Source of the DNA: a virus
Direction: 5' to 3' (one strand)
Length of the DNA: 62,252 nt
Virus record (IMG/VR): IMGVR_UViG_3300036790_000814
Coordinates: 1-62,252 of that record
Under the pieces are notes generated by a model that saw only the letters and a program-made list of their open reading frames with translations, had not been told where the DNA came from and did not search any database. Made by a program: the position numbers and the translations under genes. Below, piece after piece: positions 25,140 to 62,252 of the stretch (position 1 is the stretch's first letter; every line of letters starts with the position of its first letter).

Positions 25140-25187
25140 GTATTCCGTCGCAGATCAACATTTTCGCTCATCCAAATAGGTGATTTT

Positions 25188-26692: not shown

Positions 26693-26693
26693 T

Positions 26694-26981: not shown

Positions 26982-26982
26982 T

Positions 26983-27183: not shown

Positions 27184-27186
27184 CCG

Positions 27187-27399
27187 ATGAGCGTCAGGCA
27201 TTTTCGAGAAAAAGTAATGCTCAACAAGGACGTTTACGACAGGTTTCTGGCTGGTGATAAATATGAAACCATCGCCGCGCAACTCGAAATGAATGTCGGG
27301 ACGGTTTGCAGACGCATACGGGATCACGAGTCGGTACTGGACATACTCGGTTTGCCAGTGCCGAAGCGAAGAAAGTCGGAATTGAGATTGCAGCAATGA
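27187..27399 (+). CDS. Small HTH protein (70 aa)
   Basis: IAAQLEMNVGTVCRRIRDH is a clear helix-turn-helix. It lies 3 bp after the HicA-like gene and overlaps the next gene by ATGA. It could be the partner that controls the HicA-like protein, or an independent regulator in the late operon. Confidence 0.6.
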   Translation: MSVRHFREKVMLNKDVYDRFLAGDKYETIAAQLEMNVGTVCRRIRDHESVLDILGLPVPKRRKSELRLQQ

Positions 27400-28040: not shown

Positions 28041-28369
28041 TGAGTAATCTATCCGTAATCGTAGTCGATGAAATAGACGATAAGGAAGCATCGCCGGATG
28101 GCCAGCATTTTCTGAGCAATCAAGCACCTGGCACTATCTCGTGGAGCAACTGGTACAACAGCGATGAGGTGGCTGGTTGTTTCTATGTGTGCCCGTGCGG
28201 TTGCAGGGTTGTTGGATTCCTGTCTGTTCGCTCAGCAATGCGGCAAGAAAGTCCATCGTGGGAGTGGAACGGAGATAAAGATAAGCCGACGATGAAGCCA
28301 AGCATTCAGAAAACATCGCCATGCAAATGGCACGGCTATCTCACTGACGGCGTTTTCAAGAGTTGCTGA
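28040..28369 (+). CDS. DUF6527-like protein (109 aa)
   Basis: WEWNGDKDKPTMKPSI and CKWHGYLTDGVFKSC near the C-terminus are the DUF6527 pattern. CPCGC in the middle suggests a metal knuckle. Overlaps its upstream neighbour by TGATG. Function unknown although it recurs in phages. Confidence 0.6.
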   Translation: MSNLSVIVVDEIDDKEASPDGQHFLSNQAPGTISWSNWYNSDEVAGCFYVCPCGCRVVGFLSVRSAMRQESPSWEWNGDKDKPTMKPSIQKTSPCKWHGYLTDGVFKSC

Positions 28370-28371
28370 CC

Positions 28372-29217
28372 ATGGCTGATGTATCGGACGTTCAAAGCGC
28401 CATCGTCACGCTGGTTTCAGCCGCGATCTACCCGAACGGCACGGGTCAGGCTTCGGTGGCCGGTGTTCCGGTCGTGATCTACCCCGGATGGCCGGACAGC
28501 GACACGCTGACCGCCGATCTGGCGGCCGAAAAATGCCATGTCACCGTCTTTGCAGGGCGGGATGAGCGCAATACCACGCGCTTTCCGGTTTCGCAGCAGG
28601 TGACGGCCAATCCAGCACCTTCCCTGACGCTCTCCGTGGCGGGGCAGGTGGTCACGGTAGGCGGCACGGTATCCACCCCCCAGAACGTCATGCTCCTGGT
28701 GAACGGGAAGTCCTACGCTCACGCCGTTCAGGCCAATGACACGCTGGACACGATCGCGGCGGCGCTGGCCGCGCTTGTGGCGACCCATGTCTCCGGCACC
28801 TCCGCTACAGGCGCGGCAATCACCATAGGCCCTACGGGCTTCATCGGAGCGGCGAGGGCGGGGGGCTTCGGGACGGTCGCGACCGAATGGAAGCGGCAGG
28901 AACGGATATTCACCGTCACGGTGTGGGCGGACACGCCCGCGCACCGGGATGCACTCGCCGGCGCTGCCGACGTGGCGCTGGCAAGCCAGACCTTCCTGAC
29001 GATGCCGGACAGTTTCAAGGCGAGGATCCGCTACCGGGGATCGCCGCAGACCGACGCACTACAAAAGGAAACGCTCTACCGGCGCGACCTGAAATACGCC
29101 GTGGAATTTGCCACGACAGAGGTCAGCCAACTCGCGCAAGTCATCATCCCGTCCGTCAGTGTCACGGCCGGGGTCATCACCGATTCAAGCACGCCGATCA
29201 ACACGACTTATTTTTGA
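28372..29217 (+). CDS. Phage tail-region structural protein (281 aa)
   Basis: Begins MADVSDVQSAIVTLVSAAIYPNG. The middle contains Ig-like Val/Thr/Gly strands and the end is polar. It precedes the sheath gene, where tail-terminator or completion proteins lie; named assignment uncertain. Confidence 0.5.
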   Translation: MADVSDVQSAIVTLVSAAIYPNGTGQASVAGVPVVIYPGWPDSDTLTADLAAEKCHVTVFAGRDERNTTRFPVSQQVTANPAPSLTLSVAGQVVTVGGTVSTPQNVMLLVNGKSYAHAVQANDTLDTIAAALAALVATHVSGTSATGAAITIGPTGFIGAARAGGFGTVATEWKRQERIFTVTVWADTPAHRDALAGAADVALASQTFLTMPDSFKARIRYRGSPQTDALQKETLYRRDLKYAVEFATTEVSQLAQVIIPSVSVTAGVITDSSTPINTTYF

Positions 29218-29228
29218 AGGAGCCTGTC

Positions 29229-29372
29229 ATGCAAGTCCTGACCGTCATTCACGCCTTTGGCGACTATCCGCGCGGCCACAAGATTACCGATCCGACTGAA
29301 ATCGCCAGGGTTCTTGAAGGCGAGAACGCCCGCAGTGTCGTCAAAACGGAAGAGCCGGCGCCGCAGGAATAA
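29229..29372 (+). CDS. Short protein before the sheath gene (47 aa)
   Basis: GGAGCCTGTC site then MQVLTVIHAFGDYPRGHKIT; ends TEEPAPQE. Resembles small linker proteins that precede sheath genes. Unknown function. Confidence 0.55.
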   Translation: MQVLTVIHAFGDYPRGHKITDPTEIARVLEGENARSVVKTEEPAPQE

Positions 29373-29405
29373 CGGCCATCCCGATTTCACACAGGAGTTT
29401 AAGCA

Positions 29406-30950
29406 ATGCCCATTTATGACCTCGGCGCCCTCAACACGACTGCCCTTCAAGCGCCTGACTTGTATATCCAGAAAGTCCCTCCCCAGACCCTCTACATCAA
29501 TGGCGTTCCGACCGACATTCTCGGCCTGGCCGGCGTTGGTTCATGGGGGCCGGTCGATAGCCCGATCCTTGCGCAGGGCGATACCTTCGGCTCGGTCACG
29601 GTTCGTAAATATGACCTGGCTTCGGCCATCGCCATATCGGCGCAGGTGGGGGCAAACAACATCCGCGCCGTGCGCGTTACGGATGGCACGGATGCGGCTG
29701 CAACATGCGCGCTGAAGGACACGCAGGGTTCCCCCGTCACCGGCGCGACGCTTACCACGATCTACACCGGCATCGTCGGTAACGGCCTCTCGGCGGCGAT
29801 CACGACCGGCACGGCCGCCAGCACCTACAAGCTGACGATCAACCGCCCCGGCTACACCTCCGAGGTATATGACAATATCCCCGGCTCCGGTTCGACCTTC
29901 TGGACGAACCTGGTCAGCGCGGTGAACAACGGCCAGAGCGGATTCCGCGGCCCCTCGCAGCTCGTCGTCGCCACGATCGGCAGCAGCACCAATGTTCCCA
30001 ACACCTCCACCAGTTTCACCTTTTCCGGCGGCCTCGACGGCGCCTCAGGGGTGACGGACACCACCCTGGTCGGCACCGACAACGTTGCCGCCGCCTCGCG
30101 CACCGGCATGTATTGCCTGCGGGGTTCCGGTGCTCAAGTCCTGAACCTGATCGACCTGACAACCTCAAGCCAGTGGCCGAACATCGCCGCCTTCGCCGAT
30201 GCGGAAGGCATGTATGTCCCTTGCCAGGGGCCGGCGGGCGCATCGTACAGCACGGTGGCCACATCCCTCTCCACGGCAGGCGTGGACGATCCATCCATCA
30301 AGACGATGGTGGGCGACTGGATTTACTGGCAGGACAACGTCAACGGCGTGCAGCGCCTTATGGCTCCGGCCACATGGGTCGCCGCCGAGCTTGCGAACCT
30401 TTCTCCGCAGCTCTCTACCCTGAACAAGCAGCTTCCCGCCATTATCGGCACGCAGCGCGCGCTGCAAAACCAGCCCTACAGTACGGCGGAGATCGGCGCA
30501 GTCGCCACCTCCCGCCTCGATGTCATCACCAACCCATGCCCCGGCGGGTCGTATTTTGGCTGCCGGACGGGGCGCAATTCGTCCTCCGACCCGACGCGCA
30601 ACGGCGACAACTACACGCGCATGACGAACTACCTGGCGCTGACTCTGGCGTCGGCGTTCGGTTTTGTCATCGGCCAGCCGCAGACCACGACCCTCCGCAA
30701 TGACTGTAAGGCGGCGATCGATTTCTTCCTCGCCAACCTTGAAGACGAAGGGATGATCGGGAATGTGAACGGGGGGCCTGCTTTCTCCGTCACGCTCGAT
30801 GCCACGGATAACCCGGATAGTCAGGTGGCGCTTGGTTACATGCAGGCCGACGTGCAGGTGAAGTATCTCAGCATTGTCTGGTTTTTCATCATCAATCTGG
30901 AAGGCGGCCAGACGGTCTCCGTCCGCCTCGCCAACACGCTTTCACAATAA
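29406..30950 (+). CDS. Contractile tail sheath protein (514 aa)
   Basis: The N-terminus (residues 10-60) has the family pattern of a short extended arm then an ADP-like ILGLAGVGSWGPVDSP strand-turn. The C-terminal region has FVIGQPQ, AIDFFLANLEDEGMIG and YLSIVWFFIINLEGG, typical of the inner sheath domain that grips the tube. It shows that the virion is a myovirus. Confidence 0.88.
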   Translation: MPIYDLGALNTTALQAPDLYIQKVPPQTLYINGVPTDILGLAGVGSWGPVDSPILAQGDTFGSVTVRKYDLASAIAISAQVGANNIRAVRVTDGTDAAATCALKDTQGSPVTGATLTTIYTGIVGNGLSAAITTGTAASTYKLTINRPGYTSEVYDNIPGSGSTFWTNLVSAVNNGQSGFRGPSQLVVATIGSSTNVPNTSTSFTFSGGLDGASGVTDTTLVGTDNVAAASRTGMYCLRGSGAQVLNLIDLTTSSQWPNIAAFADAEGMYVPCQGPAGASYSTVATSLSTAGVDDPSIKTMVGDWIYWQDNVNGVQRLMAPATWVAAELANLSPQLSTLNKQLPAIIGTQRALQNQPYSTAEIGAVATSRLDVITNPCPGGSYFGCRTGRNSSSDPTRNGDNYTRMTNYLALTLASAFGFVIGQPQTTTLRNDCKAAIDFFLANLEDEGMIGNVNGGPAFSVTLDATDNPDSQVALGYMQADVQVKYLSIVWFFIINLEGGQTVSVRLANTLSQ

Positions 30951-30966
30951 GATCGGAGCCTAAGTC

Positions 30967-31401
30967 ATGTCAGTGAACGGATTTACCACAGGCCGCGACA
31001 TTACGCTGTCCATCCAGACGCCAGGCGGTACGTTGCCTGTCACGGCCAACATTACCAACTTCAACGCGAATCCGGCCTATACCGACCTCAAGGCGAAGAT
31101 GCTGGATGGCACCACGCGCCATGGGGTGATACCCGATTGCTGGGAGGGGTCGTTCGATATCGAGCGCTTCGACCCCACGCTGGATAACTACTTCGCCCAG
31201 TATGAGGACGACTATTACAACCAGAACCCCATAAGCTCTGGCACGATCTATGAGACGATCAGCGAAGCGGACAGTTCCATCACGCAATGGCGCTACACGG
31301 GTGTCACCCTGAAGCTGACGAAAGCCGGTGATTACGCCGGGGACAAGCAGGTGCAGCAGAGCGTTATGTTCCGCGCCGAACGCCGCATCAAGGTGGCATA
31401 A
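30967..31401 (+). CDS. Tail tube protein (144 aa)
   Basis: Follows the sheath gene. Beta-rich, with NGFTTGRDITLSIQ and a region SFDIERFDPTLDNYFAQYE typical of myovirus tube proteins. It would form the inner tube driven through the envelope on contraction. Confidence 0.75.
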   Translation: MSVNGFTTGRDITLSIQTPGGTLPVTANITNFNANPAYTDLKAKMLDGTTRHGVIPDCWEGSFDIERFDPTLDNYFAQYEDDYYNQNPISSGTIYETISEADSSITQWRYTGVTLKLTKAGDYAGDKQVQQSVMFRAERRIKVA

Positions 31402-31402
31402 C

Positions 31403-31783
31403 ATGGCAAAAGTCACGCTCGGCCCGAAGGCCGAAACCCCGACTGAGGCCGTGGTGAACGCCGCCAATGCGACGGTCATGGTCACGGATGCAAAGGGCAG
31501 GCAGATCACCGTCAAAAAAATCGGCGCTCTGGATCGCATGCGCCTGTTTGAACTCATCGGACCGGATAACGTGAAGAACGAAGCCTATCTCGGCTATGCC
31601 ACGCTCGCCTACGCGGCTGTAAAAATCGATGGCGAGGACGTGCCGCGCCCTACGTCAAAGCTTGCTCTCGAAGGGCTTGTGCAAAGGCTCGACGATGATG
31701 GGCTGGCCTCTGTCGCCAAGGCGATAGCTAAGAACTTCATGCCTCCCGTTGAAGATATCCGGGACAAAGTAAAAAACGGGTAG
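31403..31783 (+). CDS. Tail assembly chaperone, short form (126 aa)
   Basis: Position between tube and tape measure and a soluble helical sequence fit the lambda gpG-type chaperone. The frame ends at TAG 31781-31783 right after A AAA AAC (31771-31777). A -1 shift there continues into the next frame to 31950. Confidence 0.75.
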   Translation: MAKVTLGPKAETPTEAVVNAANATVMVTDAKGRQITVKKIGALDRMRLFELIGPDNVKNEAYLGYATLAYAAVKIDGEDVPRPTSKLALEGLVQRLDDDGLASVAKAIAKNFMPPVEDIRDKVKNG

Positions 31784-31950
31784 AGCACCCTCTTCTTGTC
31801 TCCTGTCTTTGGCTTGTCAAAAACGGGGTGCCTTACGACGTGGCGTTCAGCCTCGATGACATCGAGCGGTCGGCTTACGAAATCATCCTTGGAAAAATGG
31901 AAGGGAATCAGTGGGACTTTAGCGCGTGGCGCTGGAAAGAGCGCACATGA
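31403..31950 (+). CDS. Tail assembly chaperone, -1 frameshift product (about 182 aa)
   Basis: Reading A AAA AAC at 31771-31777, a -1 slip makes the next codon CGG and adds 57 residues. The extension includes LLVSCLWLVKNGVPYDVAFSL and a final WDFSAWRWK, typical of GT-type domains that bind tape measure protein. It ends in ATGA overlap with the next gene. This explains the 163-bp stretch that otherwise has no gene. Confidence 0.75.
31771..31777 (+). promoter_or_regulatory. -1 ribosomal frameshift site A AAA AAC
   Basis: Perfect X XXY YYZ heptamer in the zero frame (GTA AAA AAC GGG TAG), with the stop codon immediately after GGG. Same logic as lambda G/GT. Confidence 0.8.
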
Positions 31951-32405
31951 AGGAATTTACGCTGGACGGATTTGCGAAACACCTTGATGGTTTGGTCGCG
32001 GGGATGCCAGCCCTCGAACTGGCGATGCTCGAAACAATAGGCGTCACGGTCGAGAACGCAGCAAAGGACAAGATCGGGGACTATCAGGCGGAAGCCGGGC
32101 CGTTTGAAGCATGGGCACCCCTAACCGAAGGGACACAGGACGAACGCGAGCGCAAGGGTTACGCGCCGGATGAGCCCCTGCTGCGCACCGGCGAGCTTCG
32201 CGCGTCGATCACGCATCGTGTCGAACCGCCAGTTGTTGAAATCGGTTCCGATGACCCGATAGCCGAATATCAGGAATTGGGAACGAAGAACATCCCGCCA
32301 CGGTCGTTCCTCGGCGGCGCGGCTTTCGAGCAAGCGCCGAAGCTGACAGCGGAATTGGGCAAGGAGATGGAGCTTTACCTCGCTGGCCTGACGGAAACGA
32401 AATAG
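31947..32405 (+). CDS. Tail completion/morphogenesis protein (152 aa)
   Basis: Matches the gpS/Mu-gp29-type virion morphogenesis or HK97-gp10 pattern: LRTGELRASITHRV then VEIGSDDPIAEYQELGTKNIPPRSFLGG. It would close the tail tube top. The ATG at 31947 overlaps the frameshift product stop. Confidence 0.75.
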   Translation: MKEFTLDGFAKHLDGLVAGMPALELAMLETIGVTVENAAKDKIGDYQAEAGPFEAWAPLTEGTQDERERKGYAPDEPLLRTGELRASITHRVEPPVVEIGSDDPIAEYQELGTKNIPPRSFLGGAAFEQAPKLTAELGKEMELYLAGLTETK

Positions 32406-32414
32406 GGAGCGAGC

Positions 32415-34025
32415 ATGGAAGCCTATAGAGTTGGCGTCACCTTCGCCCTGAACAACCTGGTCAGCGCCGAACTGGCGAAGATGACGGGCCAGTTTCTCGA
32501 AGCGAACGACGCAGCGAAGGCGCTGAGCGCCACACTCAAGACGCTCGATTTCGGTGCATCGGCGACGATGGCTGTATCAGCCAGCGCTACGGCAATGGGC
32601 GACGCCTTCAAATACGCCTCGGTCGAAATCGACGGAGTGCGGGCGAAGCTGGTGACCATGAACGCTGCCGCAGGCGCGGGAGGCGGTGCACGGCATGGTG
32701 GTGGTGGCCTGCTCGCTGCCTTATCAAGACCTGGCCCGCTCATTGCGATAGCCACGGGCTATGAAGCCCTCAAGGGCGGCATGTCGATGGAAGACATGAT
32801 CGCCCGCGCCATGATTGCCATGGGCCTGCCGGTCGGGCCGAATTATATGGCGTCTCAGGTTGCTGCCGGGATTCAGCGGTCGGTCTTCAGCACTTCGACC
32901 GGCTACGGCGTGTCGATGGGCGATACGGAAGACGCGGCGCTTCAGGCGATGCGCGCGCTTGCTCCCCTGACGCCAGACCAACGCCTCGCGCTTCTGCCGT
33001 CGATTATGAATTTTGCCGGAGCGGAAGTGCTCGGCAAGCATGGGACAACCATGCAGGAAGCGGCGGAGGCTGGTATCGCGCTGGCGCACCAGCTCAGGGC
33101 CTACTCGCCTGAGCAGATCGAACCGCTCCTTGGCGCGTTCGCCAAGCTGTCGATGGCCTCGCCGCAAAGCCTCGCGCAGATGGCGCGGGCGTCGAGCTAC
33201 TATCTGCCCCTGCTGACGGCAGGGCTCGGCATGGATCCGTCTGAACTCATGGCTTTGGGTACGGTCGGCTCGCAGATGGGGCTGAACACGAAGGCCGGCA
33301 CCTGGCTGGCGCGGATGTTCCAGTCCCCGTTCACCGCAGACCTGACCGGGAAACGGCAAAAGGAAAGGCTGCATGCGCTTGAGGCGCTTGGCCTTGTCGA
33401 AGGCGGCAAATTCGCCACCAATGACCCAATAGAATTTCTGCAGATCATGGCGGAACACGCCGGTTCCATGTCGCCTCCGCAGCGCATGTCCGCTTACGTT
33501 GCGGCCTTCGGGCAACAGGGGGCGCGCGCAGCATCTATCTATACCGACCCGGCGGTGATGAAGAATCTGCTTGGATTGACCCAGGGACTGCGCGGCGCTC
33601 CGACACCGGAAGCTCTGCGCGGCCAATATGCCAACTCGCCGTTGGTGCAATTTCACCAAGCCGAGTCAGATTTGAGCAAAGCCTTCACGCAACTTGGTGA
33701 AGCGTTGATGCCGGAAGCAACGATCGCTCTCAAGGGATTCAGCGTCGTTGTCGAGGGTATCGCCAAGATACTAAGCGCACCCGAATGGCTCGGCGCAAAG
33801 GCCGCGGCAGGCGTGAGGGCCGGATATAACTGGGCTACGGGTGGCGGATCAACCGTACCGACATCAGCCGCTAGCCAGGCCGTTGTCATCCAGCACCAGA
33901 CAAATCTTGATGGCCGTGCCATCGCCCAAAGCACGACGCGCTATCAGCTTGACGGGCTAGCGAAGGCACCTGCCTCCGGCAATAACTTCGATCTGCGGGC
34001 TACTCCGCTAGCGACGGGGTTCTGA
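32415..34025 (+). CDS. Tape measure protein (536 aa)
   Basis: Ala/Met-rich helical protein placed after the chaperone, with hydrophobic stretches (PGPLIAIATGYEALKGG). With about 1.5 angstrom per residue it predicts a tail of about 80 nm. That is short for a myovirus tape measure but within the known range. Confidence 0.7.
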   Translation: MEAYRVGVTFALNNLVSAELAKMTGQFLEANDAAKALSATLKTLDFGASATMAVSASATAMGDAFKYASVEIDGVRAKLVTMNAAAGAGGGARHGGGGLLAALSRPGPLIAIATGYEALKGGMSMEDMIARAMIAMGLPVGPNYMASQVAAGIQRSVFSTSTGYGVSMGDTEDAALQAMRALAPLTPDQRLALLPSIMNFAGAEVLGKHGTTMQEAAEAGIALAHQLRAYSPEQIEPLLGAFAKLSMASPQSLAQMARASSYYLPLLTAGLGMDPSELMALGTVGSQMGLNTKAGTWLARMFQSPFTADLTGKRQKERLHALEALGLVEGGKFATNDPIEFLQIMAEHAGSMSPPQRMSAYVAAFGQQGARAASIYTDPAVMKNLLGLTQGLRGAPTPEALRGQYANSPLVQFHQAESDLSKAFTQLGEALMPEATIALKGFSVVVEGIAKILSAPEWLGAKAAAGVRAGYNWATGGGSTVPTSAASQAVVIQHQTNLDGRAIAQSTTRYQLDGLAKAPASGNNFDLRATPLATGF

Positions 34026-34792
34026 TGGCTGTCGTTCTCACCCTCGGCCCGCTGCTCTTCGCTGATTTTGAGGTGCCGGAGCGGATCAACGTCGGCGGCG
34101 AGCAAATGCTTGTCGTCCACAAGCTGGTGGGCGGTTCGCGCGTTATTGACGCCATGGGGCGGGACGACGCGGACATCAAATGGTCGGGCCGGTTCCGGGG
34201 GAGTGCGGCCGAAGTCCGCGCGCGGCTGGCTGATTTCACCCGTGTTCAGGGCCAGCCGATGGTTCTGGCGTGGTCAACCTTCCGCTACAACGTGCTGGTC
34301 AAGGCGTTCCACGCCGATTTCGAGCAGCAATACGAGATACCTTATTCGATCACCTGTCAGGTCGTCCAAGACCTGACCAGCCCGATCCTGACGGCGTTGC
34401 TCGGCCTTGATGCGGCGATCACCACGGATCTGAACCAGGTCGTGCAGATCGGCGCGCAGATCAACATCCCCGGCATTACCTCGGCGGTGTCGGGAGTCAC
34501 CTCGGCGGTAAGCGCCGTCCAGACCTTCGAGGGGGCGGCATCCTCCGTCACCTCCGGCGCTCTTTCAGCCATCGACCTCGCACAGGGGGCTGTCACGGGT
34601 CAGCAAAGCCTTCTGAATGGGGTGGTGGAAGCCTCCGGCAATGTGGCGGGGGCGGTCGCTGGGGCGGCCCCTGCGAGCCTCATAAGCTCGCTCACGGCGC
34701 AAGCGTCGGCCTTCAGCCAATTGGGGCTGCTCTCGCAGGCGCAAGCCTATCTGGGGCGCATGGCGGTCAACGTAGGGCAGGGAGGGTCATAG
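34025..34792 (+). CDS. Tail/baseplate protein (255 aa)
   Basis: Starts with a beta-rich domain VLTLGPLLFADFEVPERI and GGSRVIDAMGRDDADIKWSGRF, then a long Ala/Val/Ser helical tail from residue 130. The first part looks like tail DNA-circulation-type/baseplate hub partner proteins. It ends with one base before the LysM-like gene. Confidence 0.6.
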   Translation: MAVVLTLGPLLFADFEVPERINVGGEQMLVVHKLVGGSRVIDAMGRDDADIKWSGRFRGSAAEVRARLADFTRVQGQPMVLAWSTFRYNVLVKAFHADFEQQYEIPYSITCQVVQDLTSPILTALLGLDAAITTDLNQVVQIGAQINIPGITSAVSGVTSAVSAVQTFEGAASSVTSGALSAIDLAQGAVTGQQSLLNGVVEASGNVAGAVAGAAPASLISSLTAQASAFSQLGLLSQAQAYLGRMAVNVGQGGS

Positions 34793-34793
34793 G

Positions 34794-34979
34794 ATGCGCA
34801 CCGTCACAGTCGCCGGCGGCGATCTCTACCATGTGGCCCTGCAATATCTGGGGGATGCAACTCAATGGTCGCGGATCGCTCAGGCGAATAACCTGCTTGA
34901 TCCGGTGATTACCGGTATCGTCACCCTGCAAATACCTTCGGTGAATCCGACCCTTACCGGGGGCGTGCTTGCTCTTTAG
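34794..34979 (+). CDS. LysM-like tail protein X (61 aa)
   Basis: GDLYHVALQYLGDATQWSRIAQ then NNLLDP...LQIP is the single LysM/gpX motif. Such small proteins stack with the hub. Confidence 0.75.
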   Translation: MRTVTVAGGDLYHVALQYLGDATQWSRIAQANNLLDPVITGIVTLQIPSVNPTLTGGVLAL

Positions 34980-36090
34980 CGACCAGCAACAATCCGCGCC
35001 TCAGGTCAGGCAATCGACATTCAACGTCCAGGTCAACGATACCATTCCCCTGACGGGCGTCACGGAAATCGAGGTCACGAACGCCAGCCACTTTTCGGCG
35101 GATACCTTCCGGCTGAAGGCGGCGATCAACGGGCTGCCGTCCAATCTCGGCCTCAACTATTGGGACGGGTCGGCCGGAGATAACGTCGAGATATTCGCGG
35201 GCTTCAAGGATTTGGCGACGGGCGCGGCGCAATCGACCTCGCTCATTTACGGGCAGGTCGATGAAATCGACGTTGATCTGGTAACCCAGACGATCACGCT
35301 GGAGGGAAGGGATTTATCGGCGCAATTTCTGGACACAAAGCCGGATGCTGCCGGGCTAACGCCCCAATCCTATCAGGATCAGACCGCAAGCCAGATCGTG
35401 CAGACCCTCGCCAAGGCGCATGGCCTGCAAGCGCAGGTGACGCCGACGACAAACAAGGTCGGCGCTTATTATGAGTTGTATTACAATCAGCTGACGCACG
35501 CGCAATCCGAATGGGACTTGCTCGCGCTGCTCGCCCAACAGGAAAACTATGACATGTGGGTACAGGGGAAAACCCTGTACTTCCTGCCTCCGGTGCCATT
35601 GACGACCGACCCGTACATCCTGCGGTGGAATGCCGGTGGCCAAGGGGGTTACAGCGCGAATTTCGAGGATGCGCATCTGCACCGCAGCGAAACGCTCGGC
35701 AAGGATGTCATCGTCAGGGTCATAAGCTGGAACCAGGCGCAGGAAACGAAAATCACCGCGACGGCCAAGCGCGTCCAGGCGAACAAGAACCAAAGAGCCG
35801 GGGGCGCGGCGCAGACCTATACCTTCTACCCGCCGAACCTGAACCAAGCGCAGGCGACTCAATATGCCAACGCCAAGGCCGAAGAAATCACGCGACATGA
35901 GCGGATCATCAGCGGGAGCCTGCCGGGGGATAACCTCCTGACGCACCGCTCGCTTATGAAGCTCGTCGGCACCGGCACACAGTGGGATCAGGTGTATTTC
36001 GTGGACACGGTGACGCGGCATATCTCTTTTGAACATGGTTACCGCATGGAGTTCAGGGCGAAGAACCACAGCACGCAAAGCACCGAATGA
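34969..36090 (+). CDS. Baseplate hub protein D (373 aa)
   Basis: Starts at TTG 34969, overlapping the gpX stop. Similar to P2 gpD/late-control-D: ITLEGRDLSAQFLDTKP, SQIVQTLAKAHGL, EWDLLALLAQQENYDMWVQ, and a C-terminal GDNLLTHRS. Three copies make the hub that holds the spike. Confidence 0.8.
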   Translation: MLFSDQQQSAPQVRQSTFNVQVNDTIPLTGVTEIEVTNASHFSADTFRLKAAINGLPSNLGLNYWDGSAGDNVEIFAGFKDLATGAAQSTSLIYGQVDEIDVDLVTQTITLEGRDLSAQFLDTKPDAAGLTPQSYQDQTASQIVQTLAKAHGLQAQVTPTTNKVGAYYELYYNQLTHAQSEWDLLALLAQQENYDMWVQGKTLYFLPPVPLTTDPYILRWNAGGQGGYSANFEDAHLHRSETLGKDVIVRVISWNQAQETKITATAKRVQANKNQRAGGAAQTYTFYPPNLNQAQATQYANAKAEEITRHERIISGSLPGDNLLTHRSLMKLVGTGTQWDQVYFVDTVTRHISFEHGYRMEFRAKNHSTQSTE

Positions 36091-36677
36091 TCGACAGACT
36101 CCGGAACATCATGCGCCTTGAAGCGCTCCGAGCGCTCGCGCATGTGACGCAGGCAAAGACGGGCATCGTCACGAATTACGATCCGGCGCATTACGCCGCA
36201 CGCGTCCAGCTTCAGCCCGAAGGCATCTTGACCGGGTACCTCCCGGTCACCTCGGCATGGGTCGGGAACGGATGGGGTCTGTACGCGCCACCGAATATCG
36301 GCGATGTGGTCGAGGTGCATTTCCAGCAAGGCAGCAAGGAAGCCGCTTTCATCGTCAATCGGTTCTACAGCACGAAGACGGTGCCTCTGGCGGTTCCGTC
36401 CGGCGAGTTCTGGCTCGTCCACCAGTCGGGAAGCTCCTTGAAGTTCACCAACGACGGGACAGTCACGGTCAACGCCAACACGAATATGACGCTGAACGCG
36501 CCGAACGGAACGCTCCGGCTCGCGGCGGAGAAAATTCAGGTTCACGCGACGGACGAATACCGCTTCGACGTGAATGGGCATGGCCAAGCATGGCTCCCGA
36601 CAAAGATCGACACATACCAGATTGGCGAGGTGGCGGGGGCGTCGAACAACATCAGCCCGCCGGAAATCGGGGATTGA
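36087..36677 (+). CDS. Baseplate spike protein V (196 aa)
   Basis: An OB-fold part (GDVVEVHFQQGSKEAAFIVNRFY, about residues 70-92) is followed by a repetitive beta-helix of Asn/Thr/Asp. It would form the needle that first pierces the membrane. Confidence 0.8.
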   Translation: MIDRLRNIMRLEALRALAHVTQAKTGIVTNYDPAHYAARVQLQPEGILTGYLPVTSAWVGNGWGLYAPPNIGDVVEVHFQQGSKEAAFIVNRFYSTKTVPLAVPSGEFWLVHQSGSSLKFTNDGTVTVNANTNMTLNAPNGTLRLAAEKIQVHATDEYRFDVNGHGQAWLPTKIDTYQIGEVAGASNNISPPEIGD

Positions 36678-37043
36678 TTGAGTGACGTATCCCAGACCTG
36701 GGGCGATGATATCGATGTAAGCGCCAATGGGGATTTGCTCGTTGTCGATAGCCTTCTCCTGAGCGAACAGCGCGTTTTGCGTCGGCTTCTCACGAATCCG
36801 GGCGATTATATCTGGCATCCCGACTATGGGGCCGGGCTGCCCGCCATGATCGGCGAGCCGATCAACGTGGATACGGTCAAAGCCATCATCACGGCGCAGA
36901 TTTTCCTTGAGGATTCGGTCGTACGCGATCCGCCGCCGGTGGTCGATGTTTCGTCCATTCCGAACGGGATGTTTGTCAATATTCAGTACACCGAAGCGGA
37001 TTCGGGGCAACCCGTCACTTTGAGTTTCAGCGTCAACGCCTAG
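36678..37043 (+). CDS. Baseplate wedge protein W / gp25-like (121 aa)
   Basis: A TTG start directly after the spike stop. SEQRVLRRLLTNPGDYIWHPDYGAG is the gp25-like signature. Part of the baseplate inner ring. Confidence 0.8.
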   Translation: MSDVSQTWGDDIDVSANGDLLVVDSLLLSEQRVLRRLLTNPGDYIWHPDYGAGLPAMIGEPINVDTVKAIITAQIFLEDSVVRDPPPVVDVSSIPNGMFVNIQYTEADSGQPVTLSFSVNA

Positions 37044-37050
37044 GTTTTAG

Positions 37051-38175
37051 ATGGCTAGCCTTCAGACTTATGATTTCACGTCGCTGGTGCGGAACACCGT
37101 CGCGGCGATACAGGCCGGATCGAGCAAGCTTATCAATCTCTCGGTCGGCTCCGTACTGCGCGCGCTGGTCGAAGCCGTGTCCGGCGTCATTCTCTGGCTG
37201 CAGGGCCTCGTCACCTATGTTCTGACGCTCACGCGCTTCGCCACAAGCTCCGGCTCCGATGCGGATAGCTGGGGCGCTGATTTCGGCTATGTTCGCCTGC
37301 TTTCGGCATTCGCTTCCGGCCAGGTCACCTTCTATCGCTTCACCGCAACTGCTCAAGCCGTCGTTCCCTTCGGCTCGGTCGTCCAGACCGCGGACGGAAC
37401 CCAAAGCTTCACGGTCGAGACGGACCCGACGAACCCGGCCTATAGCGAATCGCTGGGCGGCTATGTGCTGCCTATCAACACGTCAAGCGTCACCGTCACC
37501 GTGGTAGCGGTGAACGCCGGAACGCAGGGCAATGTAGCCGGCGGAACCATCACCTCGATGGGGCAGGGGATTCCGGGCATTGATACGGTGACGAACGCCA
37601 GCGCGTTCATCAACGGTATCGATGTCGAGGCCGATCCTTCTTACAAAACACGGTTTCCGCTCTGGCTTCAGGCGCTGTCAAAAGCGACGAAACTGGCGAT
37701 AGCTTCCGCCATCCTGAGCGTCGAAGCGAATCTCCGCTACACGATCACGGAAAACTACGACTACAACAATACATACGATCCAGGATTTTTCTACCTGGTC
37801 ATAGACGATGGAAGTGGCGATCCATCATCCGATCTGCTGAACAGCGTAGGGTCTGCCGTCGAAGCCGTGCGCGGTCTTGGCATACGTTATGCCGTGTTTG
37901 GTCCAAACGTCGTCACCGCGAACGTCAACATGACGCTCACAACGGCGAGCGGGTACGATCACCCCACGGTTGTCGGCCAGGTTGGAACGGCACTACAGAA
38001 TTTCATCAATGGCCTCACGATAGGCACCACACTGCCCTATTCGCAGCTTGCTGCGGTCGCCTACAGCATTCCCGGAGTGACAAACGCTACATCGATCACG
38101 CTCAACAGCGGAACCTCGGATCTTACCGCCACGAATCAGCAAACGATTCGCGCGGGCACAATTACCGTCGCGTGA
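37051..38175 (+). CDS. Baseplate wedge protein J (374 aa)
   Basis: Matches gpJ: SSKLINLSVGSVLRALVEA near the N-terminus, TTSVNAGTQGNVAGGTI-type strand, then SVTVVAVNAGTQ and an IPGVTNAT segment. It forms the wedge dimer with the following protein. Confidence 0.85.
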   Translation: MASLQTYDFTSLVRNTVAAIQAGSSKLINLSVGSVLRALVEAVSGVILWLQGLVTYVLTLTRFATSSGSDADSWGADFGYVRLLSAFASGQVTFYRFTATAQAVVPFGSVVQTADGTQSFTVETDPTNPAYSESLGGYVLPINTSSVTVTVVAVNAGTQGNVAGGTITSMGQGIPGIDTVTNASAFINGIDVEADPSYKTRFPLWLQALSKATKLAIASAILSVEANLRYTITENYDYNNTYDPGFFYLVIDDGSGDPSSDLLNSVGSAVEAVRGLGIRYAVFGPNVVTANVNMTLTTASGYDHPTVVGQVGTALQNFINGLTIGTTLPYSQLAAVAYSIPGVTNATSITLNSGTSDLTATNQQTIRAGTITVA

Positions 38176-38181
38176 TCTGAC

Positions 38182-38847
38182 ATGGCCATCGGGGATCAAG
38201 CCGACTGCGAAAGCCGGATCAAGGCGCTCCTGCCGCAAAAGTGGTTTAACGATAGCTCGCCGGTCAAGGATGCGCTGGTTTCAGGCTGCGCATGGGCGCT
38301 GTCTCTGGTCTATTCGCTGATCCAGTACGCGCAGAACCAGACTCGCATAGCGACAGCGACGGATGGTTTCCTCGACCTCATCGGGTGGGACTATTTTGGC
38401 GGGAGGCTGCCGCGCCGCCAGCAAGAAACCGACGCGGCCTATCGCGCGCGCATTCAGGCGAACCTGCTTCTGACCCGCACGACGCGGCAGGGGATGGTCA
38501 ATTGCCTTGTGGCGCTTACCGGGCGCGCGCCGATCATCTTTGAACCTGCGCGGCCTCTGGATACTGGAGCCTACGGCGCCTCGATCTGCGGCTATGGTTC
38601 GGCCGGCGGTTACGGGTCGCAGAAGCTCCCGGCTCAGGCGTTCATTATTGCCTATCGGCCTTCAGGTTCCGGCATTCCGAACATCGGGGGCTATGGCTCA
38701 ACGCCATGGGGTTACTCGACGGCAAGCCAGGGCGAATACGCCAGCCTGAGCATGATTCAAGGCTACGTCACAGACGCGGACATTTTCGCCTGCGTCGATG
38801 CAGCGAAACCGGCAGGCACAACCGCCTGGACACGTTTATCGAACTAG
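38182..38847 (+). CDS. Tail protein I-like (221 aa)
   Basis: Position after gpJ and N-terminal helices ending RIATATDGFLDLIGWDYFG; the C-terminal half is Gly/Tyr-rich (CGYGSAGGYGS and GGYGSTPWGYS), an aromatic-glycine stretch likely to bind the fiber. Confidence 0.75.
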   Translation: MAIGDQADCESRIKALLPQKWFNDSSPVKDALVSGCAWALSLVYSLIQYAQNQTRIATATDGFLDLIGWDYFGGRLPRRQQETDAAYRARIQANLLLTRTTRQGMVNCLVALTGRAPIIFEPARPLDTGAYGASICGYGSAGGYGSQKLPAQAFIIAYRPSGSGIPNIGGYGSTPWGYSTASQGEYASLSMIQGYVTDADIFACVDAAKPAGTTAWTRLSN

Positions 38848-38855
38848 GAGCATTC

Positions 38856-40367
38856 ATGGACAGACAGATCGTTTACGTTGGACAGGTGCCGCAGGACACT
38901 GACCTGCTTCTGACCAACAAAAATACGATGATCGCCTTGGGGATGCTTGCGCAGGCCGTCCTCGGCACGTCCACGCTCGTTGACGGGCTTGCTTGCACCG
39001 CGACGAGCCCCGCGTCCCTCCAGGTCGATATAGGGCCCGGTTCGATCTATTCCTACCAGAATGTCGATGGCACAGCTTACGGCTCGATCAACGCCGATAC
39101 CTCCGACCAGATCGTCAAGCAGGGCATAAATCTCTCGCCCGTCGCTCTTTCCTGCCCCGCGCCTGCCACATCCGGCTATTCGGTCAACTATCTCATTCAG
39201 GCCGAGTTCGAGTCGGTCGATGGCGGATCAACCGTCCTTCCCTATTACAATTCGAGCAACCCGTCCGTCGCCTACAACGGCCCGAACAACACCGGCGTAT
39301 CGCAGAATACCATCCGTCAGGGCCAGTGCGTGCTGAATGTGAAGGCCGGTACGGCGGCCACAACCGGAACACAGGTCACGCCGACGCCCGACGCGGGCTA
39401 CACCGGCCTCTGGGTCGTCACCGTCGCCAATGGGCAGACCACGATCACGTCTGGCAACATCGCGGCCTCCGCAGGCGCTCCGTTCATCTCGAACAAATTG
39501 GCGTCGCTTGCGCCTCTGGCAAGCCCTGCCATGACCGGCGTCCCAACTGCGCCAACGGCCTCGCCGGGAACGAATACGACGCAACTTGCCACGATGGCCG
39601 CGCTCCAAGCAGCCATAAGCGGAACCGCGCAACCTACGACCGGCTCTGCCTCCGGCCTGGCGGCGGCATGGGCCTCCAACACCACACTGACTCTCTTGGC
39701 GAACGAAATCACGCTGGAAAATGGCTCTGGCGGCACATACAAGGCTGTTAGCCCCTCGCGCACGATCAACACGGGCACGACGGGAGCCGATGGCTGTGAT
39801 GTGGCATTGTCCGGCTTCTCCGCCAGTTCGTGGGCCTACTACTACCTGATTTCGGATGGCACAAACGTACGCGGCCTCCTCTCCGCTTCCGCTACGTCGC
39901 CGACGATGCCCGGAAGCTATACCTACAAAGCGCTGTGCGGTGCGTGTCGTCTCGACGGAAGCAAGAATATCGTCGGGTTCAAGCAAATCGGCCGCAAATG
40001 GCAATACCAGGTGGGGTCGAACCTGAGCGCCTTGCCGCAGATGTTCGCCGGTAATTCAGGAAGCGTTTCAACGCCGACTTATACCTCTCTTGCCATTAGC
40101 AGCTATGTGCCGACAGCCATCGCCAGCACGATCAAGTTCTGCTTTGTCAGCGCCAGCAATAACGGTCAGACAATCATCGCGCCCAACAGCAATTACGGCG
40201 CAGCAAATACGGCGACGAATCCCCCACCTTTCGATGTCGGGCCGGGATCAGGCACGAACATCACCATGATGGGCGAGCTTCTGCTCGAAAGCTCGAACAT
40301 CTACTACGCCAATAGCAACGGGTCAGGGAGCGCCACCTATGCTCTCGGCTTTGAACTGAATCTGTAG
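38856..40367 (+). CDS. Tail fiber protein (503 aa)
   Basis: The ATG at 38856 is chosen behind AGGAGCATTC; longer frames run into the previous gene. Ser/Thr/Ala/Gly-rich beta-fiber with a repetitive centre ([23 protein letters not shown], the collagen-like phage-fiber repeat). It would carry host-surface recognition. Confidence 0.8.
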
Positions 40368-43196: not shown

Positions 43197-43571
43197 ATGT
43201 GCGTTGCCTCCATGAGTGCGAAAGTTGCCCAAAATCCCAGAAAGCGCGCTCCGATGAGTCAGGCGCAGCGCGATAAGCTCTCCGCCTCCCAAAGGGCTTA
43301 CGTTCAGAACGATCCACGCTGGGAAGAACATCGGCGCAAGCTGGCCGAAGCGCAGATTTGCCGCCGCATGACGCTTTTGCCCAATGAGGTCGAATTGATC
43401 CAGTCGCTGCGCCATAGGGGACGGACGTTCTCGTACATCGAGCAAGAGATCGGCGTTTGTGGCGAAGTGATCGGGCGCGAGCTGAAGGCAATGGGCATCC
43501 ATACCGGATGCGTGCGCCCTGGCCACAGGGCCAAGCGGGGGAAGGGGTTCTGGCGTTCGTTCGATGAATGA
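43197..43571 (+). CDS. Putative HTH protein leading the ArdC operon (124 aa)
   Basis: Basic N-terminus, then LLPNEVELIQSLRHRGRTFSYIEQEIGVCGEVIGRELKAMG (in pieces), which looks like a helix-turn-helix of the transposase/resolvase type. Start uncertain (43197, 43212 or 43254). It overlaps the next gene by 8 bp and lies just after a promoter with inverted arms it might bind. Confidence 0.55.
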   Translation: MCVASMSAKVAQNPRKRAPMSQAQRDKLSASQRAYVQNDPRWEEHRRKLAEAQICRRMTLLPNEVELIQSLRHRGRTFSYIEQEIGVCGEVIGRELKAMGIHTGCVRPGHRAKRGKGFWRSFDE

Positions 43572-44496
43572 GATCAAAACCCAAAGGGCCGACGTGTATG
43601 ACCGCGTGACGGCAAAAATCATCGAGTTTCTTGAAGCTGGCGCCCCGCTCTGTGAGCGATTGTGGATTGGCGGCCCTCCCTCCATTCCCCTCCGGGTCAA
43701 CAACAAGGCATATCGGGGCATAAACCAATTAGTGCTTTTCGTCGGCGCCATTGAGAACGGCTACGGCTTGGGCCACTGGCTTACCTACAAATCAGCCAAG
43801 GGCCTCGGCGGCCAGGTGCGCAAAGGCGAGAAGGGCGAACTGGTCGTCTATGCCGATTCGTTCATCAAGCCCGTCGAAAACAAGAATACCGGCGAGACGG
43901 AAGATCGGGAGCTGTGGTTCCTCAAGGGATACACGGTCTTCAACGCGCAGCAGATCGACGGCCTGCCCGCCGCATTCTATCAACGCCCAACCATCAAGCT
44001 GATGGAGAAGCCGGAAAAGCTGGAAGCCGTAAAGCGCTTCGTTGCCAACACGGGCGCGAAGATCATCGACGGTGGCACGCAGGCTTTCTACCGGCCATCA
44101 ACCGATGAGATCCACATGCCGGACTATGAGCGGTTTACGAGCCGCGAGGCATGGCATAGCGTGGAACTCCACGAACTCGGCCATTGGTGCGCCCATTCGA
44201 GCCGTCTCAACCAGCCTCTCGGCGGTGACAAGCGCAGCAAAGCTTATGGGATCGAGGAACTGAATGCTGAGATAACGAGTGCGTTCCTTTGTGCGTCATT
44301 GGAAATCACGCCGGAAGTCCGAACCGACCATTCAGCTTACTTGGCTGCTTGGTTGGGCATTCTCCGAGAGGATAATCGTGCAATCTTTGCTGCCGCTAGG
44401 GAGGCGCAACGGCGGACTGATTATCTGTTCGGTCTGCAACCTGGTCGCCCTCAGGAAGACGGCGGCGGTTCCGACGCGCCTGACGATCCGGCATGA
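43564..44496 (+). CDS. ardC: ArdC-like antirestriction/ssDNA-binding protein (310 aa)
   Basis: The N-terminal domain is the DUF1738-type ssDNA-binding part: NNKAYRGINQLVLF, SAKGLGGQVRKGEKG, FLKGYTVFNAQQIDGLP. The C-terminal part has the metallopeptidase motif HELGHW (H-E-x-x-H type; about residues 203-208). ArdC proteins of conjugative plasmids bind entering ssDNA and protect it from restriction. Its presence supports real conjugal entry of this element. Confidence 0.8.
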   Translation: MNEIKTQRADVYDRVTAKIIEFLEAGAPLCERLWIGGPPSIPLRVNNKAYRGINQLVLFVGAIENGYGLGHWLTYKSAKGLGGQVRKGEKGELVVYADSFIKPVENKNTGETEDRELWFLKGYTVFNAQQIDGLPAAFYQRPTIKLMEKPEKLEAVKRFVANTGAKIIDGGTQAFYRPSTDEIHMPDYERFTSREAWHSVELHELGHWCAHSSRLNQPLGGDKRSKAYGIEELNAEITSAFLCASLEITPEVRTDHSAYLAAWLGILREDNRAIFAAAREAQRRTDYLFGLQPGRPQEDGGGSDAPDDPA

Positions 44497-45819: not shown

Positions 45820-46203
45820 GTGAGCGACCATGAAGGGCTGGCTCTTGGCGTCGCACTGATCGCCGTCGGCATATGGCTTGCCGCACGCCGCCGTCCTGCG
45901 CGTCTGGTCGATCAGACCGTCTTCATCGTCCGCAACCTCAAGAACCTTCTGGCGATTGCGTTCGCGCTTTTTCTGCTGGCTTGGTGGGCCGGGGCCTTCA
46001 GTAATGACCAGGTTGAGCGTTGGTGGGAGCGCTTCTGGGATGAGGCCGCGCGTATCCCGTTCCTGGTCTTCCTTGCCTTCATCGTCGGCGCTCCGGCGGT
46101 CTGGCACTGGATCAACCGGGCGTACACCCTTCGGGGACCGCCGCAGATGCCGCCGCCACGTAGCAAACCCTACGGCTGGCGTAAGCCGGGCAACCGGGTT
46201 TGA
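45820..46203 (+). CDS. Membrane partner of the coupling protein (127 aa)
   Basis: GTG start at 45820. Three hydrophobic segments (about 7-22, 43-60, 80-98) and a proline-rich tail, overlapping the ATPase gene by TTGA. Full-length VirD4 proteins carry such N-terminal spans themselves, whereas the next gene has none. A separate anchor subunit is therefore plausible. Confidence 0.6.
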   Translation: MSDHEGLALGVALIAVGIWLAARRRPARLVDQTVFIVRNLKNLLAIAFALFLLAWWAGAFSNDQVERWWERFWDEAARIPFLVFLAFIVGAPAVWHWINRAYTLRGPPQMPPPRSKPYGWRKPGNRV

Positions 46204-47513
46204 ACGTCTGGGCGACCAACGGCGGAATCTATCTCGGCTGCCCGGCGGACAGCCCGCAGGGTGACTGGCGCGGCAACGCTGGCGTCGAGCATCGGTATGA
46301 TGGTGATCGGCACATCCTCCTGCTCGGCCCCAACGGTAGCGGTAAAACAAGGCGTCTGCTCTATCCGAACCTGCTTTCCCTCCAGCGCTGGTCGGTCCTC
46401 GTTGTCGATCCCAAGGGCCTGCTGGCAGGACTGACAATCAACCAGCGTATTGGGACCAAGATCGTCCTCGATCCGTTCAAGGTGACCTCCCTTCCCTCCG
46501 CCGGCTTCAATCCGCTATCGGCACTAAACTCTGCGGACGACACCTTTCCCGATGACTGCCTCGGTATCGCCCGGTCGCTGATTCAGATTGAGGGCTCCGA
46601 ACCGCACTGGTCGGCCTCGGCGCAAGATTGGGTGTGCGCTCTCATCATGTATGAGAAGCTCAAGCATGGTGACGCGGCAACGCTGGTCGGCGTGCGCAAG
46701 AATCTCGGCGGCAGCCAGGCGGATACCCGACAACTCGCGGCAGATATGTGCGTCCTTGGCGACGAGGAAGACTGTGGCGAGCTCGTCATCAAGGCCTCGC
46801 GATTCCTCGATATCAACGAGGAGTCGAAGGAACTGAACAGCATCCTCTCCACCGCTCTAACGCAGACGCGATGGCTGGACAGCCGCCCGATCAAGGCCGA
46901 TTTGAGCGGCGGTACGTTCGATTTCGCGACGATGAAAGACCGTCCGGTCACGGTCTACCTGGTGCTTCCCCCGAACCGCTTGGTCACGCACGGGCCGTGG
47001 CTCCGGCTGATGATTACCGCCGTGCTCCAGCCGCTTTTGCGGGAGGTGAAACCTTCAGCGACGCCCGTCCTGTTCATGCTGGACGAATTTGCCCAGCTCG
47101 GCCATCTGCCGGTGATCGAGGAGAATCTGGCGGTGATGCGCGAGTACGGCGTCAAGCTCTGGCCCGTGTTTCAAGACGTGGCGCAGGGACAGGCGATCTA
47201 CGGCAAGCGCTGGCCATCGTTCCTGAGCAACAGCGGCATTGTCCAAAGTTTCTCGGCCATGGATGTCGATACCGCCGAACTGCTCTCCAAACGCTCGGGG
47301 CAGACATCCGAATGGATCGAGGTGCCTTCCGAAAGCCGAAATCTCGGCCGCGAGTTGAGCCGGTCGGTCAGCGCCGCCGCACAAGTGATCCAACGCCCTG
47401 TCCTCTGGCCGCACGACCTGATGGATATGGATGACGGCTATACCGTCATCTATTCACACCGGGCCAAAGGGCCGGTTTTTGCGTTTGCGCCGTGGCCGTC
47501 CGCCCTTGGCTGA
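46200..47513 (+). CDS. VirD4/TraG-type coupling ATPase without membrane domain (437 aa)
   Basis: TTG start. Walker A GPNGSGKT at 43-50 and Walker B LFMLDEFAQLG at 291-301. SNSGIVQSF and the DPFKVTSLPSAGFNPL region are typical of T4CP. It would bring the relaxase-DNA complex to a type IV channel. At 437 aa it is shorter than the usual 550-700 aa, and the N-terminal membrane part is missing. No mating-pair genes are in the window, so it would use a foreign channel. Confidence 0.85.
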   Translation: MNVWATNGGIYLGCPADSPQGDWRGNAGVEHRYDGDRHILLLGPNGSGKTRRLLYPNLLSLQRWSVLVVDPKGLLAGLTINQRIGTKIVLDPFKVTSLPSAGFNPLSALNSADDTFPDDCLGIARSLIQIEGSEPHWSASAQDWVCALIMYEKLKHGDAATLVGVRKNLGGSQADTRQLAADMCVLGDEEDCGELVIKASRFLDINEESKELNSILSTALTQTRWLDSRPIKADLSGGTFDFATMKDRPVTVYLVLPPNRLVTHGPWLRLMITAVLQPLLREVKPSATPVLFMLDEFAQLGHLPVIEENLAVMREYGVKLWPVFQDVAQGQAIYGKRWPSFLSNSGIVQSFSAMDVDTAELLSKRSGQTSEWIEVPSESRNLGRELSRSVSAAAQVIQRPVLWPHDLMDMDDGYTVIYSHRAKGPVFAFAPWPSALG

Positions 47514-49667: not shown

Positions 49668-49700
49668 TGCAAACGCGTGCGTTTGCAAAAGTGCGCTAAC
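49668..49700 (+). other. oriT: Candidate origin of transfer (oriT), RSF1010-like
   Basis: Perfect inverted repeat TGCAAACGC-GT-GCGTTTGCA (49668-49687) followed by AAAGTGCGC (49688-49696). The MOBQ nic region of RSF1010 reads TAAGTGCG then CCCT after an inverted repeat. Here AAGTGCG ends 8 bp after the repeat, the same spacing; the nick would fall about 49695/49696 on this strand. It lies between the relaxase and its probable accessory gene. Confidence 0.7.
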
Positions 49701-49817
49701 CCTTCTACCGCCGCCTGCTTGCCTCTGCTCCATCGGCGGGCCTTTCCCCCGAACCATGGTTGCGCCATGATAACAGCGGCATCGCGGGAATGCACGACCA
49801 GAAAAGGGGGTGAGGAC

Positions 49818-50144
49818 GTGGGCGACACACTCGACCGGCTGACGAAGCTGAAGCAGAGGCAGGCGAAGCAGCTAGAAAAAGAGATTCAGGAAGCCACCAA
49901 GCGCAAGCAGTTGGAGAGCCGTATCCGCAGGGAAGAAGCGGCGCTGGCTTTGCGCCTCGCGGGTCTGCTGGGCGAGACGATACGGGACGCAACCCTGACA
50001 CCGGCGGAGCACGAAACCATTGCCGCGATTATCCGCCGCCGTGAGGGGCAGCCGCGGGATTGGGCGAAGGTGCTTGAGTGGTTGGAGGCTTCGGCTCCGA
50101 AGCCATTGCCGCAGGTGGTTACCGAAGCTATCCGGGCGGCCTGA
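49818..50144 (+). CDS. Relaxosome accessory-like protein (108 aa)
   Basis: The GTG start at 49818 follows GGGGGTGAGGAC. Two long charged helices (LKQRQAKQLEKEIQEATKRKQ) make a coiled coil, followed by a short domain with PAEHETIAAIIRRREG. Comparable in place and style to MobC/TraD-type accessory proteins next to MOBQ relaxases. Its end overlaps the convergent gene 50128-50349. Confidence 0.6.
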   Translation: MGDTLDRLTKLKQRQAKQLEKEIQEATKRKQLESRIRREEAALALRLAGLLGETIRDATLTPAEHETIAAIIRRREGQPRDWAKVLEWLEASAPKPLPQVVTEAIRAA

Positions 50145-61190: not shown

Positions 61191-62252
61191 GTGCCGAAAG
61201 CTGGCTACCTTTACAAGCGCGGAGATACCTATTGGGGCCGAGTCCGTCTGGCCGGACGGGAGCACAGGCGCAGCTTACGAACGTCTGATGCCCGGGAAGC
61301 TGCCAGGCGACTCAAGGCGTGGCGGCTCAAGGTTGAGCGCGCGGTTGTGGCGGATCCCGACTCCCCGACCTTCAAGGCAGCGGTGGTCAAATGGGCAGAA
61401 GAAGTCCTGCCAAAATCGGTGAAGCCTGCCGTCATGCGGCGCTATCTGACCAGCATTGCGCAACTCGACCCTGTCTTTGGCCCGCTCCGCATTGGTGAGG
61501 TCAACACGGCCAAAATCAGCGAGTATGTGAGCCTCCGCACACGCACAACCAGCAATGCCACCATACGCAGGGACTTGACGGCCCTCTCGCGCCTGATGGC
61601 GGCTTGCGTGGCATGGGGATGGCGCGATGATAACCCTGTGCGCCTATATGACCGTAGCGTTGTCCTGCGCGAACGCCGGGAGCCGATTGAGCCGCCTGGT
61701 GAGGATGATTTCCAGCGCGTGCTGGCTGCCGTTCCTGAGGCAATGGCGAAGGTGCTGCGGCTCCTCGACCAGACCGGCATGCGCGAGAATGAAGCGGTCG
61801 TCCTGACGGCAAGCGACGTGAACAAGGAACGGAAGCAAATCACGCTCCTGCGAACCAAGACCAGCCGCCCGCGCACCCTCGATTGGAAGACCCCCGCAGG
61901 GGACGCTACGGACGCGCTGACGGCCGGGGAAGAGAAGGGGGTGCTGTTCCCCTCTCGCAGCGGGAAGCCATACGGCAACTTCGCCAGCGCCTTCGGGGCA
62001 GTCATGCGTCGCGTGGTCGCTGCCGAAAAGAAGGCCAAGCGTCCCTTCCGCCGGTTCCGCGTCCACGATCTCCGCCACGGCTTCGCCATCCGTTGGCTAA
62101 AGAATGGGGGCGGGATATATGAGCTGTCCAAGCACCTTGGACACTCGTCCGTAAAAACGACAGAGGGCTATCTGGGCTACCTGTCTGGGAAGGAACAGAA
62201 ACTTGCACAAACTGGGGCACAGTGGCATGTTGGGTTAGCAGCCGCAGAATGA
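61191..62252 (+). CDS. int: Tyrosine integrase (353 aa)
   Basis: GTG start behind GGAGCGGG. An arm-type N-terminus (GYLYKRGDTYWGRVRL), a core-binding SAM-like domain (about 60-145), and a catalytic domain with Arg in TGMRENE, His-x-x-Arg in HDLRHGF, His in LGHSS and the Tyr nucleophile in TTEGYLGY. It would recombine attP with a chromosomal attB. The window ends at its stop codon, so neither att site is visible. Confidence 0.9.
   Translation: MPKAGYLYKRGDTYWGRVRLAGREHRRSLRTSDAREAARRLKAWRLKVERAVVADPDSPTFKAAVVKWAEEVLPKSVKPAVMRRYLTSIAQLDPVFGPLRIGEVNTAKISEYVSLRTRTTSNATIRRDLTALSRLMAACVAWGWRDDNPVRLYDRSVVLRERREPIEPPGEDDFQRVLAAVPEAMAKVLRLLDQTGMRENEAVVLTASDVNKERKQITLLRTKTSRPRTLDWKTPAGDATDALTAGEEKGVLFPSRSGKPYGNFASAFGAVMRRVVAAEKKAKRPFRRFRVHDLRHGFAIRWLKNGGGIYELSKHLGHSSVKTTEGYLGYLSGKEQKLAQTGAQWHVGLAAAE

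Follow-up and report, generated by a model that had tools for sequence, protein, structure and literature searches.

Known MOBQ systems and the locus under study

The closest described counterpart of the locus considered here is the MOBQ system of RSF1010/R1162, made up of the origin of transfer (oriT), MobA and MobC. The RSF1010 site reads GAGAAACCGG-TAAGTGCG/CCCT, with the nic position taken from PMC4814116; it comprises a hairpin, an AAGTGCG core and a distance of 8 nucleotides (nt) from repeat to nic, and lies between divergent mobA and mobC genes, the nicked strand being directed to mobC. Hairpin, core, spacing and polarity all recur in the DNA analysed here (the window), the 62,252 nt of IMG/VR record IMGVR_UViG_3300036790_000814. 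The window differs in one base of the core and in the bases 3′ of nic and, unlike RSF1010, has no recognisable MobC and a phage carrier with its own type IV coupling protein (T4CP). By itself the oriT belongs to a well-known kind. Because its architecture, spacing and polarity match RSF1010 and recur in homologues, and because a relaxase with the appropriate domain, fold and conserved catalytic residues adjoins it, we assign a probability of about 0.78 to the reading that positions 49668–49704 are the oriT of a MOBQ-type mobilisation module on a temperate myophage, mobilisable by the type IV secretion system (T4SS) of a helper.

Other described systems share parts of this arrangement. In pIP501 (TraA/TraI/TraJ), an IncQ-type relaxase is accompanied by a two-protein coupling protein, TraI + TraJ, in which the membrane protein is encoded immediately upstream of the soluble ATPase (PMC4981023); pIP501 encodes a full T4SS, whereas the phage has no VirB4. 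Mob genes and oriT can also be borne by P1-like phage-plasmids and by plasmids that descend from them; these phage-related elements differ from the window, where the morphogenesis block looks complete and an integrase is encoded. In phage-plasmids, mob/oriT were gained after loss of virion genes (PMC10879196). Finally, conjugation-like transfer has been reported for the temperate phage Phi1207.3, a ‘conjugative prophage’ (PMC4260502); compared by description, the word ‘relaxase’ occurs in neither of its two papers and oriT does not occur in the sequence paper.

Anatomy of the predicted origin of transfer

A preliminary description of the site had reported a perfect 9-base-pair (bp) inverted repeat with a 2-bp centre and an AAGTGCG ending 8 bp further on, between a relaxase and an accessory gene; both arrangement and placement are confirmed (Table 1). 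The predicted nic lies 8 nt past the repeat, exactly as in RSF1010, as had been claimed, and within the 7–10 nt of MOBQ origins of transfer. The claim that the RSF1010 nic core is reproduced holds for AAGTGCG and fails at one base: AAGTGCGC is exact, and the first T of TAAGTGCG is replaced by A, giving AAAGTGCG. The full MOBQ consensus NWACCNNTAAGTGCGCCCTYNN, quoted in PMC3832669, is not matched, and CCCT is displaced by a TAA insertion, in agreement with the earlier remark that the bases after the core differ. The MOBQ-type relaxase gene lies alongside, the repeat lies 18 bp upstream of its start, and the strand predicted to be nicked is directed away from it.

No other perfect inverted repeat with arms of at least 9 bp and a loop of 0–6 nt exists in the whole window. 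Chance alone, estimated from composition and not from a full null, would yield such a repeat with AAGTGCG after it in about 0.001 cases per window; for the intergenic strand that holds the site, the figure is about 2e-6. With three mismatches allowed, the 29-nt pattern matches once in the window and never in 100 shuffles. The repeat folds as single-stranded DNA, and only 4 of 200 shuffles fold equally well. No sigma-70 promoter was matched at the site, and the exact 18-nt site was not found in IMG/VR. As a negative control, the 16-mer GTTTGCANAAGTGCGC (core and half-arm) gave 38 IMG/VR matches, none with a repeat or a relaxase. The core alone is therefore no evidence, and it is the sequence context that carries the case.

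Table 1. Features of the proposed mobilisation locus and of its carrier in the window
Feature	Positions	Strand	Basis
Perfect 9-bp inverted repeat, 2-nt centre (GT); predicted relaxase-binding hairpin of oriT	49668..49687	+	TGCAAACGC-GT-GCGTTTGCA; single-strand fold; homologous self-complementary repeats
Nic core AAAGTGCG; predicted cleavage 49695/49696	49688..49695	+	RSF1010-like spacing and core
Sequence 3′ of nic, CTAACCCTT	49696..49704	+	3 nt TAA between first C and CCCTT
MobA/MobL (MOBQ-type) relaxase, 632 amino acids	47752..49650	-	PF03389, NF041496, 4HT4/2NS6 folds, alignment
Small divergent open reading frame (ORF), 108 amino acids; putative accessory protein in MobC position	49818..50144	+	Position as RSF1010 mobC; GTG start inferred
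VirD4/TraG-like coupling ATPase (T4CP) without membrane domain	46200..47513	+	PF02534 E 5e-59; hydrophobic segments absent
Small membrane ORF overlapping T4CP start; proposed membrane half of split coupling protein	45820..46203	+	Three hydrophobic segments
ArdC-type antirestriction protein with MPTase domain	43564..44496	+	PF08401, PF18818
Myophage morphogenesis block: terminase, portal, capsid, sheath, baseplate, fibre	18751..40367	+	PHROGs
Tyrosine integrase	61191..62252	+	phrog_1 E 7.5e-48; PF00589

Conservation beside homologous relaxases

Nineteen homologous loci were scanned over a stretch reaching from 50 bp within the relaxase gene to 350 bp ahead of its start, on the strand divergent from that gene, with an RSF1010-type plasmid as reference. 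Fifteen of the 19 have the repeat and, after it, AAGTGCG, at the equivalent place, strand and spacing; these include a related phage, plasmids from proteobacteria and Bacillus, and scaffolds of unverified nature. Elsewhere in these loci the combination has no match in 159,676 strand-bases. Of the four loci without it, three have TAAGTGCGC and a weaker repeat. The repeats differ widely in sequence and keep their self-complementarity; a MAFFT alignment of the oriT sequences was uninformative because the repeats differ between loci. Collectively, the homologues strongly support, at the level of sequence, a MOBQ oriT in the window, and with it the earlier RSF1010-like reading.

The bases after the core are CCCTT, CACTT or CATTA/CATTT among homologues, with a longer insert between core and CCCTT in the window (CTAACCCTT) and in a relative, G001 (CTGCGCACCCTT). 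As these bases vary naturally, the 3′ mismatch of the window is no objection. Right arm and core are almost the same in small MOBQ plasmids from Delftia (L103), Iodobacter (L104), Sphingobium (L109) and Novacetimonas (L102), which read GTTTGCA-T-AAGTGCG against GTTTGCA-A-AAGTGCG in the window. These four have another loop and left arm, and CCCTT directly after nic; their relaxases are 35–39% identical to that of the window in alignments that cover under half of the protein.

Relaxase, coupling protein and accessory gene

The relaxase has a MobA/MobL domain (PF03389, E 3.4e-33, over the cut-off), a catalytic tyrosine, and an HxH motif with an upstream histidine; Y29, H132, H144 and H146 are invariant in an alignment of three phage relaxases. 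It also matches the NCBIfam MobQ model NF041496 (E 2.7e-43), at 148 bits against an equivalog cut-off of 200, and is therefore named MOBQ-type and not MobQ proper. Its sole relative in the PDB by sequence is the staphylococcal nicking enzyme 4HT4. A model built from the three phage relaxases, of moderate quality (mean predicted local distance difference test score 70), has 4HT4 and R1162 MobA (2NS6) as top folds. A search of genome contigs with a two-sequence relaxase alignment found no relative.

In the window and in the related contigs G001, G002 and G009, the T4CP starts at the nucleotide-binding region without N-terminal membrane segments, and an ORF with at least two hydrophobic segments stands just before it, both judged by hydropathy only. 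T4CP identity is 36–45% among the phage proteins and 28–35% with full-length plasmid T4CPs, values which suggest long retention. In a tree, the phage proteins fall outside the plasmid group without forming a resolved clade, and a single acquisition is therefore not established. A scan of IMG/VR with the four-sequence T4CP alignment recovered only the other three phage contigs, with short peptide patterns that miss distant proteins. No VirB4 (PF03135) was found in the window or in four relatives, five contigs in all, and the window accordingly lacks the VirB4-type ATPase or mating channel of a self-transmissible conjugative element. An oriT, a relaxase and a T4CP in the absence of VirB4 make up the layout of an element mobilised through a helper channel. 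The small divergent ORF, which BLAST did not connect with the accessory protein of G001 or with those of two plasmid modules, is a putative accessory gene by its mobC-like position.

The phage carrier and its relatives

The preliminary description overlooked that the site, which is supported, lies on a tailed phage. By its gene content the carrier is a temperate myophage: terminase, portal, capsid, sheath, baseplate and integrase are present, together with a scaffold protein, RecT and two ParB-like genes. A replication initiator, as in a phage-plasmid with episomal lysogeny, was not recognised among the ORFs scanned; the integrase points to integration.

Relative G001 (77.5 kilobases, kb), the related phage with the closest module, is ∼50–80% identical to the window across most of the morphogenesis block and has, in the same region, a relaxase (34% identity), a T4CP (39%), ArdC and ParB. 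Its candidate oriT, GCGATTTC-GGA-GAAATCGC-GTTAAGTGCG-CTGCGCACCCTT, has the same layout, with TTAAGTGCG and a repeat wholly different yet self-complementary. G002 (46.6 kb) shares 85% capsid and 45% T4CP identity with the window and has a different MobA/MobL relaxase, 27% identical to that of the window. Its candidate oriT (L091 2724–2741 onward), identified post hoc, reads GTATTGG-CTAC-CCAATAC, then TTAACCGCG-CTCTCC, with the same polarity; the repeat is the only one within the scanned intergenic stretch. The different relaxase and candidate oriT of G002 suggest exchange of the relaxase–oriT pair within one phage lineage. The contig of G009 ends inside the T4CP gene. Among the 49 records searched, many of them partial, PF03389 was found in G002 only and PF02534 in G002 and G009 only; close relatives other than these and G004 are fragments in which no module gene was found. 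Capsid relatives at 57–60% identity occur in Burkholderiales and Sphingomonas genomes. In G001 and G002, as in the window, ArdC homologues neighbour the module, a position that would fit a role in protecting single-stranded DNA as it enters.

Proposed mechanism and alternative explanations

Nicking, use of a helper and transfer, which we infer from the site, its homologues, the conserved placement and the absence of VirB4 from the contig, might proceed as follows. The relaxase would bind the hairpin of the + strand, cut after G49695 by means of Y29 and a three-histidine metal site, and remain covalently bound to the new 5′ end, with the accessory protein aiding relaxosome formation. The VirD4-like ATPase of the phage, anchored by the product of the membrane ORF just upstream, would hand the complex to a T4SS whose channel is supplied by a co-resident conjugative element. 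The accessory-gene side would leave first and the relaxase gene last, and the whole phage genome would be transferred. A mobilisable phage is proposed because the T4CP and membrane ORF are conserved in four phage contigs, VirB4 is lacking and an integrase is present.

Several points weigh against this reading. The core departs from TAAGTGCG by one base, and for the accessory protein there is no match to a known MobC/TraC family or to a Pfam family. G004 has neither T4CP nor relaxase in the 13.9 kb past its tail fibre, and the module is absent from more distant relatives (capsid <60%). The contigs are metagenomic and may be incomplete. This metagenomic origin also invites the explanation that the contig is a chimera of phage and plasmid made in assembly, which is hardly credible given that in G001 and G002 the module likewise lies to that side of the morphogenesis block and is followed by homologues of ParB and ArdC, and that G009 has its T4CP at the same position too. 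Equally hard to credit is a repeat that is a mere operator for divergent promoters, its likeness to a nic site being due to chance. The proximity of the repeat to the relaxase start and the recurrence of the 16-mer without repeat or relaxase would fit an operator, but here the repeat, the core, their spacing and strand and the neighbouring relaxase come together, as they do again in homologues, and nowhere else in those loci.

Two explanations that accept a genuine module deserve more weight, although both are unlikely. Relaxases can prime rolling-circle replication, as is known from integrative conjugative elements. The nicking pair might likewise serve phage DNA metabolism, such as rolling-circle copying after excision, instead of conjugation; the phage lacks channel genes, and its integrase leads one to expect an excised circle, but a conserved T4CP, which has no replication role, accompanies the relaxase with its membrane partner. 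Slightly less probable again is a plasmid mobilisation module caught by phages and now decaying, its function lost. Its absence from part of the wider phage family would agree with decay, as would a relaxase that has diverged far more than the capsid (34% versus 80% identity between window and G001). Yet the frames are open and the catalytic residues invariant, repeat pairing and nic core have been kept through sequence turnover, and the module is found in independent contigs.

If the preferred reading of a mobilisable phage is correct, a phage with a complete-looking set of virion genes spreads in two independent ways, one host-killing and one not. Such an element would unite a temperate phage (integrase, virion genes) and a mobilisable element (oriT, relaxase, T4CP), and blur the border between them in the direction opposite to that of the phage-plasmids of PMC10879196. 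For the wider proposal, the odds are about even: a temperate myophage lineage would keep a phage-specific module for DNA processing, made up of oriT, relaxase and split coupling protein, as a second route of transmission, in which resident conjugative elements mobilise the prophage without lysis and the relaxase–oriT pair is exchanged within the lineage. The site offers a small DNA segment and an enzyme that can be tested directly. No description of a phage with an oriT–relaxase–T4CP module was found in open-access full texts, a scope outside which subscription papers and preprints fall; this silence is weak evidence of novelty.

Other records and neighbouring genes

Relaxase matches from ‘Bacteriophage sp.’ records were rejected as evidence for phage relaxases, being short unannotated scaffolds. 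Two such faecal scaffolds (MT838691.1 and MT839752.1) have MOBQ-type relaxases with canonical oriTs and are probably plasmid fragments; MT839752.1 also has a plasmid-like T4CP. Synechococcus phage Ssp-JY41 (PP438431.1), titled a complete phage genome, encodes relaxase-like and T4CP-like proteins; it was likewise rejected, since its annotation lists RepA, ParA and a toxin without any virion gene, and looks like a plasmid. Dolichospermum phage Dfl-JY45 (PP438435.1), a 209-kb record deposited as phage, has a relaxase-like gene near 205650 with GTAAGTGCGCACTT upstream. In the window itself, 14479–16218 encodes a fusion of a DNA methylase domain with an Mrr-like restriction endonuclease domain, beside a DUF7380 protein (10864–12786), possibly restriction or defence cargo.
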